From NCBI GenBank assembly GCA_018063015.1, contig JAGORC010000003.1:1-45762 (forward strand): a stretch of DNA of 45,762 bases, given 5' to 3'. The notes under the pieces are model-generated. The model was not told the DNA's origin. It was given only the letters and a program-made list of their open reading frames with translations, and made no database searches. Shown here piece by piece: positions 7,443 through 32,296 of the stretch (position 1 is its first letter; the number at the start of each line of letters is the position of its first letter). The stretch is from Minisyncoccota bacterium. GTDB lineage: Bacteria > Patescibacteriota > Minisyncoccia > Phycocordibacterales > UBA9973. The position numbers were made by a program, and so were the translations under genes.

Positions 7443-7515
7443 GGGCGGTTAGCTCAGTTGGTAGAGCGACCCCTTGACGTGGGGTAGGCCACAGGTTCGA
7501 ATCCTGTATCGCCCA
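7443..7515 (+). tRNA. tRNA-Val (GAC)
   Basis: A 73-nt cloverleaf: acceptor GGGCGGT pairs with ATCGCCC, discriminator A at 7515. The anticodon stem ACCCC/GGGGT holds loop TTGACGT with anticodon GAC; the T loop is GTTCGAATC. CCA is not encoded. The start codon of tsaD lies only 7 nt (CTTTTTT) beyond the 3' end. Confidence 0.95.
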
Positions 7516-7522
7516 CTTTTTT

Positions 7523-8665
7523 ATGAAAATACTTTCAATTGAAACATCTTGCGATGAAACAGGGATAAGCTTGCTTGAATGTAGTGGTGGGGTTAAAAAC
7601 CCAACCTTCAAAGTTCTGGCCAATGCGCTATCCTCTCAGGCGAAGCTTCACTCCCCTTATGGTGGTGTGTATCCGAACCTTGCCAAGAGAGAACATATTA
7701 AAAACCTCCCAATCCTTTTAGAAAAAATTTCTAAAAAAACTAAATTAAAGAAGCCAGATGTAATAGCCGTCACTTCAGGACCTGGACTTGAACCAGCACT
7801 ATGGACTGGAATAGTTTTCGCACAAGAACTATACAAAAAGTGGAACGTCCCAGTAGTACCCGTAAACCACATGGAGGGACACATAATATCTCCCTTCGGG
7901 AGTGTAAAAGGAAATTTCAAAATACCGAAAATAAATTTCCCTGCAATTTCACTTCTAGTATCTGGAGGCCATACAGAATTAATACTTATAAAGGATTGGA
8001 TGGACTACAAACTCATAGGAGAAACATTAGATGATGCAGCCGGAGAGGCATTCGATAAGGTAGCTCGGATGATGGAGCTCCCCTACCCAGGAGGACCCGA
8101 GATATCTAAAATTGCAGAAGAAAGAAGGACCTTGCTTTTGAAAAAACTTGGGAGCGCGACGGCGCGAGCACGAGGAATTTTTCAACAGGAAAATATCCGT
8201 GTTTTTCAAGAGCAAGGTCCTGAAATTTCTTTACCTCGTCCTATGTTGAAGAGTAAAAATTATGATTTCTCCTTTTCTGGACTTAAAACAGCGGTACTTT
8301 ATTTAATAAAGAAAATAAATTCAACAAATGAATTAGGAAAACTTGATGAAAAAACAAAATCAAAGATTGCCCTAGAATTTGAAAACGCAATAGTAGAAAC
8401 TCTAGTTTATAAAACCAAGAAAGCTATGGAAGAATACAAATCATCAACTCTCATAATAGCTGGAGGAGTAGCTTCTAATACTCATCTTAAAAGAGTTATG
8501 AAGAAAGAACTAGGAAAGAAAATAAATATCCTATTACCCGGGAAAGGTCTCGCCACGGACAACTCTATCATGATAGGAATGGTTGGATATATGAAATATT
8601 TAAAGAAAGGAGGTAAATTTGGTAATCCTAAAAACATAAAGGCAGAAGGAGGATTAAGGTTATAG
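7523..8665 (+). CDS. tsaD: tRNA N6-threonylcarbamoyladenosine transferase TsaD
   Basis: TsaD transfers the threonylcarbamoyl group to A37 of ANN-decoding tRNAs, together with TsaB and TsaE. The start MKILSIETSCDET, the metal-binding HMEGH (about residues 116-120), SGGHTEL and the late GGVASNTHLK are all intact. The 380 residues exceed the usual ~340. The excess is explained by a 96-bp (32-codon) palindromic element at residues 202-233, between GGPEISKIAEE and PRPMLKSKNYDFSFSGLK, in a loop where homologues run straight through. Without it the protein would be 348 residues. The start codon is 7 nt after tRNA-Val, so the mature mRNA may begin where tRNA processing cuts. Confidence 0.95.
   Translation: MKILSIETSCDETGISLLECSGGVKNPTFKVLANALSSQAKLHSPYGGVYPNLAKREHIKNLPILLEKISKKTKLKKPDVIAVTSGPGLEPALWTGIVFAQELYKKWNVPVVPVNHMEGHIISPFGSVKGNFKIPKINFPAISLLVSGGHTELILIKDWMDYKLIGETLDDAAGEAFDKVARMMELPYPGGPEISKIAEERRTLLLKKLGSATARARGIFQQENIRVFQEQGPEISLPRPMLKSKNYDFSFSGLKTAVLYLIKKINSTNELGKLDEKTKSKIALEFENAIVETLVYKTKKAMEEYKSSTLIIAGGVASNTHLKRVMKKELGKKINILLPGKGLATDNSIMIGMVGYMKYLKKGGKFGNPKNIKAEGGLRL
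8126..8221 (+). repeat. In-frame palindromic element inside tsaD
   Basis: AGGACCTTGC + TTTTGAAAAAAC (8126-8147) is the reverse complement of GTTTTTCAAGAGCAAGGTCCT (8201-8221), with one mismatch and one length difference. The 96-bp element is exactly 32 codons with no stop. Its centre (GAGCGCGACGGCGCGAGCAC) is much more GC-rich than the surrounding gene. These features point to an inserted MITE/REP-like element tolerated within the protein. Confidence 0.82.
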
Positions 8666-28087: not shown

Positions 28088-31000
28088 TTATGGATTAAAA
28101 AGCGATTGAAAACAGACTATAGCATTTATCTTTTTTGCTGTATAGCCAGCCACTATTCCTGTAGGTTTCTTGAATCCTTGTGATCCAAGTATCTCGTTGA
28201 AATACAGATATTGTAAGTCCTTCACCGCTTTCTCTGTTCTTGGACCATAATACCCCGTAGAAGGTAAATCATATTGTATCCCGTACAAACTTAGAAATCT
28301 CTGAAGCTTCATAACGGTATCAGGATTATTCACCCTCTTTCTAGATAAATATGTATCTACAGGCAAATATGGTTCACACACTCCATTTTCATTTGATGGT
28401 ATTGGAAGTTCTGTGTTTTCATTTATTTTTACTTTTGTTCTTCCACCTCCACCACCAGAAGATAGAATACTCCTACCTCCTCCAGAATCACTAGAATTAA
28501 GTGAAAGAGAGGATAAGAAAATATCTCTTCTGGCATTTGTGTCAGTTTGAACTAGGTTTGTTAAATTTGAAGAGAAAATAACATAAGCTCCATCAGGAGA
28601 AATCATAAATACATTATCATCATCAAGTTCGTCCCCTGCTATCTCACCCCCAGCATAAGTTCTAATAACTCTTATAACTTCATCTGTTTCTCGGTCAACT
28701 ACAAATAAATCAGCTGTTGCATTGGTGTCATCTTCTACTAGATTTGTCGCATATGAATAAAATCCAACATGTCTTCCATCGGATGAAATCGATAAACTTC
28801 TTGATTCATCATCTCCTTGCACTCCATCTACATTCTTACTTACAAGCTCAATCTCCCCATTACCTCTTGTGTAAGAAAATATATCAGAAGATAGATTGCT
28901 ATCGTTTTGTATCAACTTTGAAGAATCAGATTCAAAGAATATATAAGCTCCATCTTCTGATATGACAGGATTATTAGAACCATCATCGTTATCAACTATA
29001 GTTGCATCAAAATTTATAATAAAATCAGTAGTATCGAGTTCTCTATCTCTTATAAATATATCGCTCCCATTATTAAAATCTTCATCCTTTATTAGTTCAT
29101 CTCCAGAATCAAATATTACATACCTACCATCAGAAGATACATCTGGTCTATCTGAAGAATTGTCTATTTCGTCTCCATTATTGCGCAAGCTGACTCTCTC
29201 TGTTGTATCTAGTTCTCTGTCTCGTATAAATATGTCTCCTGCATCATTCGTATCTCCTGAAATTAAGTTTGTAGCTTCAGAATAAAAAGTAACGTACCTT
29301 CCATCTGAAGAAACTGAAGGCTTGTATGATTGATCATTTCCTTGTATTTCATTACTAGAAATACTTAAAATTTCAGTAGTTCCCAATTCCACATCACGAA
29401 TAAATACATCTTGAACCAGATTAGTATCGTTAGCTGTTAAATTAGTAGAATACGAGGCAAAGACAACATATCGTCCATCTGAAGAAATCGCAGGGGCTTC
29501 TGAAGTTACTTCAAGGTCCCCTTCAACTTCTTCACTTGAAACACTAATCCTTTGAGTAGTGCCACCATTTCTATCACGAATAAACACATCTGGTTGTGCA
29601 TTCGTATCTCCTACTACGAGATTTGTTGCGTTAGAAATAAATGTAATGATTTCTCCATCAGCTGATATATTTGGATATAATGAGCTTCCATTCCCTTCTG
29701 CCTCTCCATCTGTAACACTTACACGGATTGTGGTATCAAGTTGTAAATCACGAAGAAATATATCCCCTGCAATATTTGTATCTCCTGCCACAAGATTTGT
29801 TGCATTAGAATAAAAAACAACGTAACGCCCATCTCCAGATATTGGTGCAAATCCACTTGATTCATCATTAGCTTCAGATTCATCATCAGTAACACTCACC
29901 CTCTCTGTTGTATTTGTTTGCCTATCATGAACAAATATATCTTCAGTAGCATTCGTGTCTCCTGCAACAAGGTTAGTAGCGGAAGAAGGAAAAGTAACGT
30001 ACCTTCCATCTGAAGACACTGAGGGGTAATAGGAATGACCATTTGCCTCTATACCTCCAGTTGCTACGCTCACTCGTTCTATGCTTCCACTAAGACGATT
30101 AATAACGAAGATATCTGAGGAACCATTTGTATCATCTTCTACTAGATCTGTAGCATCAGAGGCAAAGGCAATAAAATTGTCATCACCAGAAAATCTAGGT
30201 TCTGTGGTTCCTCCATTGCCGTGAGGAATTATAGTATTCTGACTAACTCTAATGGTGTCACCGGTATGGGTATCATGCATAAATATATCTCTTACACCAT
30301 TAGTGTCATCGTCCACTAGATTAGTAGCATCTGATTCAAAAGTTATAAATCGTCCATCACCTGAAATACTCGGGTTATCTGCTCCATCATCACCTTCCAC
30401 TCCATTACTTGAAACGTTTACTCTAGATATAAAAGAGAGGTCTATGTCATAAAGAAATATATCTGATGATAAATTATTATCGTTATCCACTAAATTTGAT
30501 GCTTCAGAATAAAACACCACATATTTACCATCTGAAGATATTGTCACATTCCTTGATTCACTATTTGCTTCAGCGTCAGAATTTGAAACACTTATCCTAG
30601 TTGTAGTATCATTGGTCAAATCACGAAGAAATATATCCGAAAATCCATTCGTGTCTCCTGAAACTAAATTTGTTGCGCTAGAAACAAAAGCTACATACCT
30701 TCCATCTGAAGAAATACTCCCTCCAGAGCTAGCATTATTACCTTGAGTTCCATCAGTTGCAACACTTACGATTTCATACTCTCGTGTCATCCTGTTAAAC
30801 AAAAATACATCTTGATAAGCATTAACGTCGCTAGAAACAATATTTGATGCCTCAGAATCAAATACAACATATTTATTGTCCTCGGTTATACTAGGATTAT
30901 ATGAATGTCCGTTGAGTCCAGTACTACTATCTTCAAATTCTATTGCCCACTGCGTGGTATCAAGTAATGTATCTCTAATAAATAAATCATTTGCACCATT

Positions 31001-32296
31001 AGTATCGTAACTGATAAGATTACTGCCATTATTGTTAAACAACACGTATCGCCCATCTTGCGAGAGATTTGCAATCGGAGAATCACTGTTTGGTTGTCCA
31101 CCACTTGAAGTTAAACTGACTCTCTCTGTAGTGTTGGACTGTCTATCTCTTATAAATAAATCACCGAATCCATTCGTGTCTCCTGTAACTAAGTTTGTGC
31201 CAGTAGAATAGAACAACACATATCTTCCATCAGAAGACATATTTACCCCATTACTTGCTCCATTTCCTTCTACGCCACCAGTTGAGATACTAACTCTTTC
31301 TGTTGTCCCATCTTGTAAATCCCGGACGAAAGCATCGAAAACTGCATTAGTATCGCCTGCTACTAGATTTGTAGCGCTAGAGCTAAACACAACATAACGA
31401 CCATCAGGTGTTATATATGGTGTAGAGGATTCATTGTCAGCTTCAACCTCAGAGGAAGAAACGCTAACTCTCTCTGTTGTGTCCAATTGTGTATCTCTTA
31501 TAAATATATCTATATCCCCATTGGTGTCTCCTGCTACAAGCGTAGTGCCCGCTGAATAAAAAACAACATACCTTCCATCAGAAGATGAAACACTTCTAAA
31601 TACATAAGAGTGGCCATCAGATTCCGCTCCAGCGGTACTTACACTTAATCTTTCTGTTGTATCCAAATCTCTATCGTGAACAAAAACATCAGCAAGTCCG
31701 TTAGTATCTCCTGCAACTAAGTTAGTTGCGCTGGAATAAAAATATACATATCTACCATTCGCAGAGATTGAAGCCCCGTAAGAATCAGCGCTAGATTCTG
31801 CTCCTCCAGTAGCTATACTTACTCGCTCAGTTGTATCTGTATTTCTGTCATGAACAAATATGTCATGGCTAGCATTGGTATCTCCTGCGACAAGATTACT
31901 TGAAGATGAAGAAAAGGCTACATACCTTCCATCGGAAGATATGCCTGACTCACTAGACGAATTATTACCTTCCACACCTGCCGAGGATACACTGACTCTT
32001 TCTATGACTGAAGTGTTTAAGTTCTTAACAAAAATATCATCAACCCCATTTGTATCTCCTGACACTAGATTAGAAGAAGAAGATTTAAATACTATGTAAT
32101 TATTGTCTTCCGAGAAGGAACCGTAGATAGATTCCCCGTTTCCTGACTGAGGAAAGGAATCTGTTGAGTTGGTTATTTTATCAATAGACAGAAGAGAAAA
32201 ATCTACTGCATTAGAAATAAAATGATACCCTAAAAAAGCTACAACTAAGGCAGATACAGCTATAAAAAATTTATCGTAAAAAAGACCTTTCTTCAT
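28088..32296 (-). CDS. Giant secreted beta-propeller protein with PG-binding-like end
   Basis: A 1402-residue surface protein. A signal/anchor helix lies at about residues 10-27 (FFIAVSALVVAFLGYHFI). From about 60 to 1280 come 21 repeats of ~58 residues with the pattern SSDGRYVVFYSxATNLVAGDTNG-x-x-DIFVRD, then TTERVSVS: PD40/TolB-like propeller blades with Asp/Asn-rich, possibly Ca-binding turns. A Gly-rich linker follows (GGGRSILSSGGGGG). The last ~100 residues (NNPDTVMKLQRFLSLYGIQY, TGYYGPRTEKAVKDLQ) resemble a peptidoglycan-binding domain. It is probably anchored to the wall and may mediate attachment. It is transcribed away from the sigma-factor gene; a GATAAT box lies 6 nt before the ATG. 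Confidence 0.88.
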   Translation of the reverse strand: MKKGLFYDKFFIAVSALVVAFLGYHFISNAVDFSLLSIDKITNSTDSFPQSGNGESIYGSFSEDNNYIVFKSSSSNLVSGDTNGVDDIFVKNLNTSVIERVSVSSAGVEGNNSSSESGISSDGRYVAFSSSSSNLVAGDTNASHDIFVHDRNTDTTERVSIATGGAESSADSYGASISANGRYVYFYSSATNLVAGDTNGLADVFVHDRDLDTTERLSVSTAGAESDGHSYVFRSVSSSDGRYVVFYSAGTTLVAGDTNGDIDIFIRDTQLDTTERVSVSSSEVEADNESSTPYITPDGRYVVFSSSATNLVAGDTNAVFDAFVRDLQDGTTERVSISTGGVEGNGASNGVNMSSDGRYVLFYSTGTNLVTGDTNGFGDLFIRDRQSNTTERVSLTSSGGQPNSDSPIANLSQDGRYVLFNNNGSNLISYDTNGANDLFIRDTLLDTTQWAIEFEDSSTGLNGHSYNPSITEDNKYVVFDSEASNIVSSDVNAYQDVFLFNRMTREYEIVSVATDGTQGNNASSGGSISSDGRYVAFVSSATNLVSGDTNGFSDIFLRDLTNDTTTRISVSNSDAEANSESRNVTISSDGKYVVFYSEASNLVDNDNNLSSDIFLYDIDLSFISRVNVSSNGVEGDDGADNPSISGDGRFITFESDATNLVDDDTNGVRDIFMHDTHTGDTIRVSQNTIIPHGNGGTTEPRFSGDDNFIAFASDATDLVEDDTNGSSDIFVINRLSGSIERVSVATGGIEANGHSYYPSVSSDGRYVTFPSSATNLVAGDTNATEDIFVHDRQTNTTERVSVTDDESEANDESSGFAPISGDGRYVVFYSNATNLVAGDTNIAGDIFLRDLQLDTTIRVSVTDGEAEGNGSSLYPNISADGEIITFISNATNLVVGDTNAQPDVFIRDRNGGTTQRISVSSEEVEGDLEVTSEAPAISSDGRYVVFASYSTNLTANDTNLVQDVFIRDVELGTTEILSISSNEIQGNDQSYKPSVSSDGRYVTFYSEATNLISGDTNDAGDIFIRDRELDTTERVSLRNNGDEIDNSSDRPDVSSDGRYVIFDSGDELIKDEDFNNGSDIFIRDRELDTTDFIINFDATIVDNDDGSNNPVISEDGAYIFFESDSSKLIQNDSNLSSDIFSYTRGNGEIELVSKNVDGVQGDDESRSLSISSDGRHVGFYSYATNLVEDDTNATADLFVVDRETDEVIRVIRTYAGGEIAGDELDDDNVFMISPDGAYVIFSSNLTNLVQTDTNARRDIFLSSLSLNSSDSGGGRSILSSGGGGGRTKVKINENTELPIPSNENGVCEPYLPVDTYLSRKRVNNPDTVMKLQRFLSLYGIQYDLPSTGYYGPRTEKAVKDLQYLYFNEILGSQGFKKPTGIVAGYTAKKINAIVCFQSLFNP
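28490..32120 (-). repeat. 21 tandem ~174-bp coding repeats
   Basis: The repeats encode the ~58-residue blades of the giant protein; borders are approximate. Units are diverged in DNA but keep the core words for SDGRYV and GDTN, so the array is old rather than recently amplified. Confidence 0.85.

Follow-up and report, generated by a model that had tools for sequence, protein, structure and literature searches.

The copies of a Rickettsia palindromic element share one consensus over the whole element, arms included. Each of these elements spans approximately 150 bp and codes for a conserved peptide (Ogata et al. 2000, 2002; PMC10969869). The CGTC-tagged REPs, to which RPE-4 and RPE-6 belong, have a terminal CGTC and a stem of 8–9 bp that almost always starts with AT, and mostly carry a CCA tail (PMC3733652). 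In nematomorph mitochondria, inverted repeats are found in coding genes and their arms evolve in concert, for which template switching has been proposed as a possible cause (PMC6649704); further, the repetitive hairpin-forming (or double hairpin) elements of mitochondria are described as small hairpin repeats that invade genomes (PMC2800124). Known short mobile palindromes carry their own inverted repeats; in the family described below, the repeats belong to the site.

The window, that is, the whole stretch of 45,762 nucleotides that was analyzed, derives from a genome of 618,675 bp in 38 contigs. On its plus strand, tsaD (7523–8665) encodes the tRNA threonylcarbamoyladenosine transferase subunit TsaD, a protein of 380 residues, which is matched by the NCBIfam profile TIGR03723 with 339 bits; the predicted (AlphaFold2) model retains the TsaD fold, and Foldseek relates it to 6z81 and 4ydu (TM approximately 0.83–0.84). 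A tRNA-Val (GAC) is located at 7443–7516 and ends 6 nt ahead of the tsaD start codon. Elsewhere in the window (28088–32296, minus strand), a protein of 1402 residues is encoded in which a 58-residue repeat (SSDGRYVxFxSxATNLVxGDTN) occurs about 18 times, and which has an N-terminal segment resembling a membrane anchor.

Inside tsaD lies a palindrome of 96 nt (8126–8221) which, as reported in the first-pass annotation, is stop-free and in the codon phase of the gene, where it encodes residues 202–233. Two arms of 20 nt (8126–8145 and 8202–8221), complementary at 19 of 20 positions with a single T·G wobble on the plus strand, enclose a core of 56 nt (8146–8201). The annotated near-perfect pairing of the arms is real, but their extent had been given too generously (8126–8147 and 8201–8221), as positions 8146, 8147, and 8201 fall outside the symmetry; likewise, the core is GC-rich as described only in its first hairpin, P2 (8154–8165, with the loop GACG), while the second one, P3 (8168–8201), is AT-rich. 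The inverted-repeat score of the palindrome, determined within 289 kb of the window's genome, is 17; Markov-shuffled sequence of the same 289 kb contained no inverted repeat scoring 14 or more with a spacer of at most 160 nt, and palindromes as long as the arms are expected by chance approximately zero to one time per 100–300 kb.

In keeping with the proposed insertion, about 6 residues of the TsaD proteins of E. coli and Salmonella stand opposite approximately 35 of the window's TsaD. Insertion-free versions, the existence of which had been anticipated, do occur in relatives of the genus, and distant TsaD proteins show no conservation of the 32 residues in question. The idea that excising 96 bp would restore a typical enzyme nevertheless overstates the size of the insertion; the loop comprises 44 residues in the window's genome and 19–25 residues in the uninserted relatives, which means a net gain of approximately 57–75 nt. 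Residues 211–233, a stretch encoded entirely by the element, are disordered in the AlphaFold2 model (pLDDT below 50).

A search of the window's genome with the whole element led to six further places where the type B core recurs. Aligned, the seven copies have a core of 55–57 nt in common (ACTTGsGAG-stem-GAC-stem-CGAGCACGAGGAATTTT-loop-AAAATATCCGTR), one of them being divergent. Arms and core had initially been taken for one repeated unit; in fact it is the core alone that repeats, and because the arms differ at each site, the genome-wide search for the arm sequence that had been suggested would have found nothing. The divergent seventh copy (L007 1501–1552, corresponding to G000:C11 11586–11637) adjoins the end of dprA and is flanked by two near-identical sequences, GATTAGrCTAGATrCCTAATCGC. 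Two models were built, R1 for the core type of the window and R2 for a sister type from tsaD of relatives. Across the family the core measures approximately 55–65 nt and folds into two hairpins, which the arms close to form a three-way junction. Paired changes vary the stems of both core hairpins as well as the arms; among 82 distinct copies, changes on both sides were observed in 25 of 25 pairs, and the covariation score of 0.620 compares with 0.189 in shuffles (0 of 500) and about 0.15 with slid partners, although fitting the alignment to the model biases it towards the structure. A special design of the cores for open reading frames was considered and rejected; a weak excess exists for type B (4.0 open frames versus 3.2 in shuffles), and none for type A. 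A separate core type, GCCTTCGCCCTCGGAGaCATaGGACAGGGgACcCACGACGCC, also with its own arms at each site, is present at L205 and L208 (both pheT) and at L154 7629–7726.

In the window's genome, alignment of the copies shows arms that are different at every copy and continue into the local sequence. For 29 type B copies in which the boundaries of the core are clear, the complementarity between the arms is 0.76–1.0 up to nucleotide 20–21 from the core and is near background by nucleotide 26–28, while the identity of arms among the type B copies is only 0.375. Another 85 copies, identified via the core alone and previously unused, gave the same picture, with complementarity mostly 0.7–0.95 up to nucleotide 19 and a slower fall thereafter, and with an inter-copy arm identity of 0.33. 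Arms are typically 20–25 nt long, near-perfect within a copy and unrelated among copies, and no single consensus spans the whole element, the arm identity being 0.33–0.375 while the arms pair within each copy. A model-free census of inverted repeats in 289, 295, and 100 kb from three genomes recovered the same class, namely several types of core whose arms are unrelated; it also recovered coreless palindromes, which are mostly terminator-like and unlike the arms.

Arms of orthologous copies change together. In UvrD, they pair at 0.60–0.76 within each of twelve type A genomes, compared with 0.435 when arms are mixed across genomes, and none of 5000 permutations reached the observed mean pairing (14 uvrD genes with a 54-residue site). 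An exception to site-specific arms is found in G046, where at least 11 copies have constant arms of approximately 45 nt (TGAATTACGAAACTC..AGGCATGTCTTTTTTAG; for example, L137 8730–8827 and L139 9839–9935), and in this subfamily arms and core apparently move jointly. Another repeat family of G046 and G062 has arms of the form ATCCCGTTAGA.. and ..TCTAACGGGAT with AT-rich spacers of 55–97 nt (L148 11222–11304, L155 8294–8412, and L146 6258–6387).

In-frame copies reside in tsaD, pheT, pcrA/uvrD, tgt, dusB, leuS, ileS, mnmA, and the genes for a cysteine desulfurase and the CCA-adding enzyme; they occupy variable loops, with both core orientations and several reading frames represented, and other copies are located outside genes. 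The insertion in tsaD is not an isolated case but lies in a hotspot, as 41 of 52 TsaD proteins encoded in the genus have at least 29 residues in this loop and most of the long loops contain a palindromic insert, the core of which belongs to one of several types and may point either way. Sister species differ there: G008 carries type A and the loop of G009 is empty, G071 has type A versus type C in G042, and G000 has type B versus a small hairpin in G069. Likewise, at least five sorts of insert are found in the PheT loop across species. Strain-level pairs of filled and empty sites were not found, the best identities among the genomes of the genus being approximately 75–80% and the closest genomes reaching about 78% in DNA. 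Short coreless hairpins, too, sit in frame in the same loops as the cores, namely a AAGGTCTTGCCTT type, a GTCAAAGAGACTCTTTGAC type, and a perfect 22-bp hairpin (L192 and L193 in dusB of G066 and G059; L219, L222, and L210 in pheT of G066, G012, and G088; L018 in tsaD of G013). One could argue that the segment in TsaD is an ordinary lineage-specific protein loop whose codons are palindromic by chance, as it is translated and in frame; however, the core recurs across genes in several frames and on both strands, the loop content varies between sister species, and the copies outside genes refute this explanation, the probability of which we consider negligible.

Which strand of the element folds can be approached through the arm mismatches. 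Read on the core strand, the mismatches of type B copies comprise 27 G·T versus 8 A·C, those of the 85-copy set 37 versus 16, and those of UvrD, where cores lie at the same place in both orientations, 14 versus 1. The bias follows the core strand whatever the strand of the gene. A polarity that reverses with core orientation within one gene provides a clean natural test of the folding strand, and because the bias flips when the core does, irrespective of the gene, the wobble excess is ruled out as a sign of mRNA folding. Together with the co-evolution of the arms, the preponderance of G·T over A·C suggests that one specific single strand folds; candidate causes of the bias are core-sense single-stranded DNA, an antisense RNA, and C-to-T damage to a core strand that lies exposed.

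These data bear on whether the element might be a functional structured RNA, such as an attenuator, a ribozyme, or a riboswitch, in the service of its host genes. The conserved three-way junction with its compensatory changes would be in keeping with such a role. However, no Rfam covariance model matches the element at the gathering score, the host genes are unrelated to each other, both core orientations occur at the same place of the same gene, the mismatch polarity tracks the core strand rather than the mRNA strand, and sister species may lack the insert altogether (as in the case of G008 and G009). A function of this kind is, in our estimation, very unlikely.

We somewhat favor, at slightly better than even odds, a non-autonomous selfish palindromic element that builds its own arms from the target by fold-back synthesis. 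Its mobile or maintained form would be a single strand of core sense, DNA being likelier than RNA. At insertion, the folded core might prime fold-back (template-switch) synthesis, which would copy approximately 22 nt from one side of the core to the opposite flank, such that the arms would derive from the target itself. Later rounds of fold-back correction could keep the arms alike and permit the core to invert or to be swapped between arms; deletion of the core may sometimes occur. Selection would remove the copies that break a frame, which would leave in-frame copies in disordered loops, for example, residues 202–233 of TsaD.

Filled and empty sites allow this scenario to be compared with another one, in which the core enters the loop of pre-existing hairpins, the arms being old palindromes of the host, and movement, flipping, and swapping concern the core alone. 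At the UvrD site, 20–25 residues are present when it is empty and mostly exactly 54 with type A, with either orientation of the core; the gain of approximately 31 residues corresponds to the core together with roughly one arm, as would be expected if one flank were copied by fold-back synthesis. The constancy of 54 residues with cores in both orientations also fits a core that enters existing hairpins, as does the coreless palindrome AGGACTTTGCTTTTACAGCAAAGTCCT in tsaD of G010, which matches the arms of G000 and G045, and as do the similar KEKQ/GFSF arms that enclose A+, A−, and B cores in tsaD of different species. Yet the empty UvrD sites of relatives contain no palindrome, and neither do their DusB loops without insert, which are only 7–9 residues long. 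The filled DusB loops (G046 and G054) have gained approximately 25–27 residues, with arms of 21 nt; there, the right arm covers the conserved SLKE/PLKE and thus represents host sequence, and the left arm is without counterpart. Further, the coreless palindromes of the genomes mostly resemble terminators and not arms, chance palindromes of arm length are rare, and cases like that of G010 fit loss of the core as well, tsaD of G075 resembling such a remnant. Entry into old palindromes appears rather unlikely to us, albeit worth serious consideration, and fold-back synthesis of the arms is the reading we retain.

The core is dispersed, with many copies per genome, across species of these tiny, uncultured bacteria. 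Within the genus, which appears to be one of Nomurabacteria-like Patescibacteria, R1 matches 57 and R2 matches 56 of the 60 genomes sampled, with 0–37 copies in each at the threshold chosen. In a phylum-wide set of 287 genomes, 13 have matches; these comprise the window's own genome and a second one from the genus, a single further genome from its family, four from its order, and six whose families are more distant. The exact core pattern is found in named GTDB genomes of Nomurabacteria, Taylorbacteria, Yonathbacteria, Zambryskibacteria, and Vogelbacteria, as well as Wildermuthbacteria, Nealsonbacteria, Giovannonibacteria, and Moraniibacteriota; the family is present beyond the genus in related Paceibacterota. 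No match to the exact pattern was found in viral contigs.

As to the mobilizing agent, small dispersed palindromes call to mind elements of the REP/REPIN type, which are mobilized by RAYT, a Y1 tyrosine transposase, and Y1_Tnp (PF01797) is indeed encoded in 26 of the 41 genomes searched. However, Y1_Tnp is absent from the genome of the window, no R1 or R2 copy adjoins ten of the best Y1 loci, the copy number does not track the number of Y1 genes (rho of −0.25 and 0.00), and GTAG is present in just 3 of 44 distinct cores. Mobilization by RAYT is not supported by these findings and must be regarded as highly improbable.

The set length of the arms and a complementarity kept over evolutionary time point to a mechanism that inserts or maintains DNA without requiring element-specific ends. 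Across a radiation of bacteria with tiny genomes, the family has reshaped surface loops in the essential proteins TsaD, PheT, PcrA/UvrD, Tgt, DusB, LeuS, and IleS, which bears on the question raised by the Rickettsia elements, that is, how coding palindromes originate and spread when no transposase is involved. In agreement with the first-pass annotation, according to which no such element was established for this lineage, a literature search for palindromes in these bacteria found no report; nor did it find a constant core with site-specific arms, which is weak evidence of novelty since most subscription papers were outside its coverage.

The resemblance to Rickettsia palindromic elements that had been pointed out holds for the in-frame placement in an essential gene. 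It extends to their being short palindromic elements of several families, many of them in frame in housekeeping genes, without a known transposase (PMC10969869); the differences are that only the core is common to the copies, the arms being specific for each site, and that the lineage is unrelated. With the CGTC REPs, the elements share a small palindromic form, some intragenic copies, and the lack of an associated transposase (PMC3733652), but CGTCAT is present in none of the 44 distinct cores on either strand, and these fold into a three-way junction. GTAG REPs and REPINs are small dispersed palindromes as well, some of them intragenic (PMC3733652); unlike those, the cores generally have no GTAG tag at the foot of the hairpin and no association with RAYT. 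A MITE of a DNA transposon would have constant terminal inverted repeats in common with an autonomous element, whereas the outer arms here, apart from the G046 subfamily, differ at each site. The coding palindromes of nematomorphs (PMC6649704) are comparable in that they lie within genes and their arms evolve in concert, as the UvrD arms do, yet for these no constant core has been reported, they do not form a dispersed family, and their arms are nearly always perfect. The mitochondrial hairpin elements differ in being described as intergenic, and the abstract of that report makes no mention of site-specific arms (PMC2800124). It is possible, if a little less than an even bet, that a new kind of mobile element is at hand, of which only a folded core of approximately 60 nt is inherited and the inverted repeats of 20–25 nt are made afresh from the target via a strand-specific single-stranded fold; we read it as a selfish element akin to those of Rickettsia, yet of a new type.
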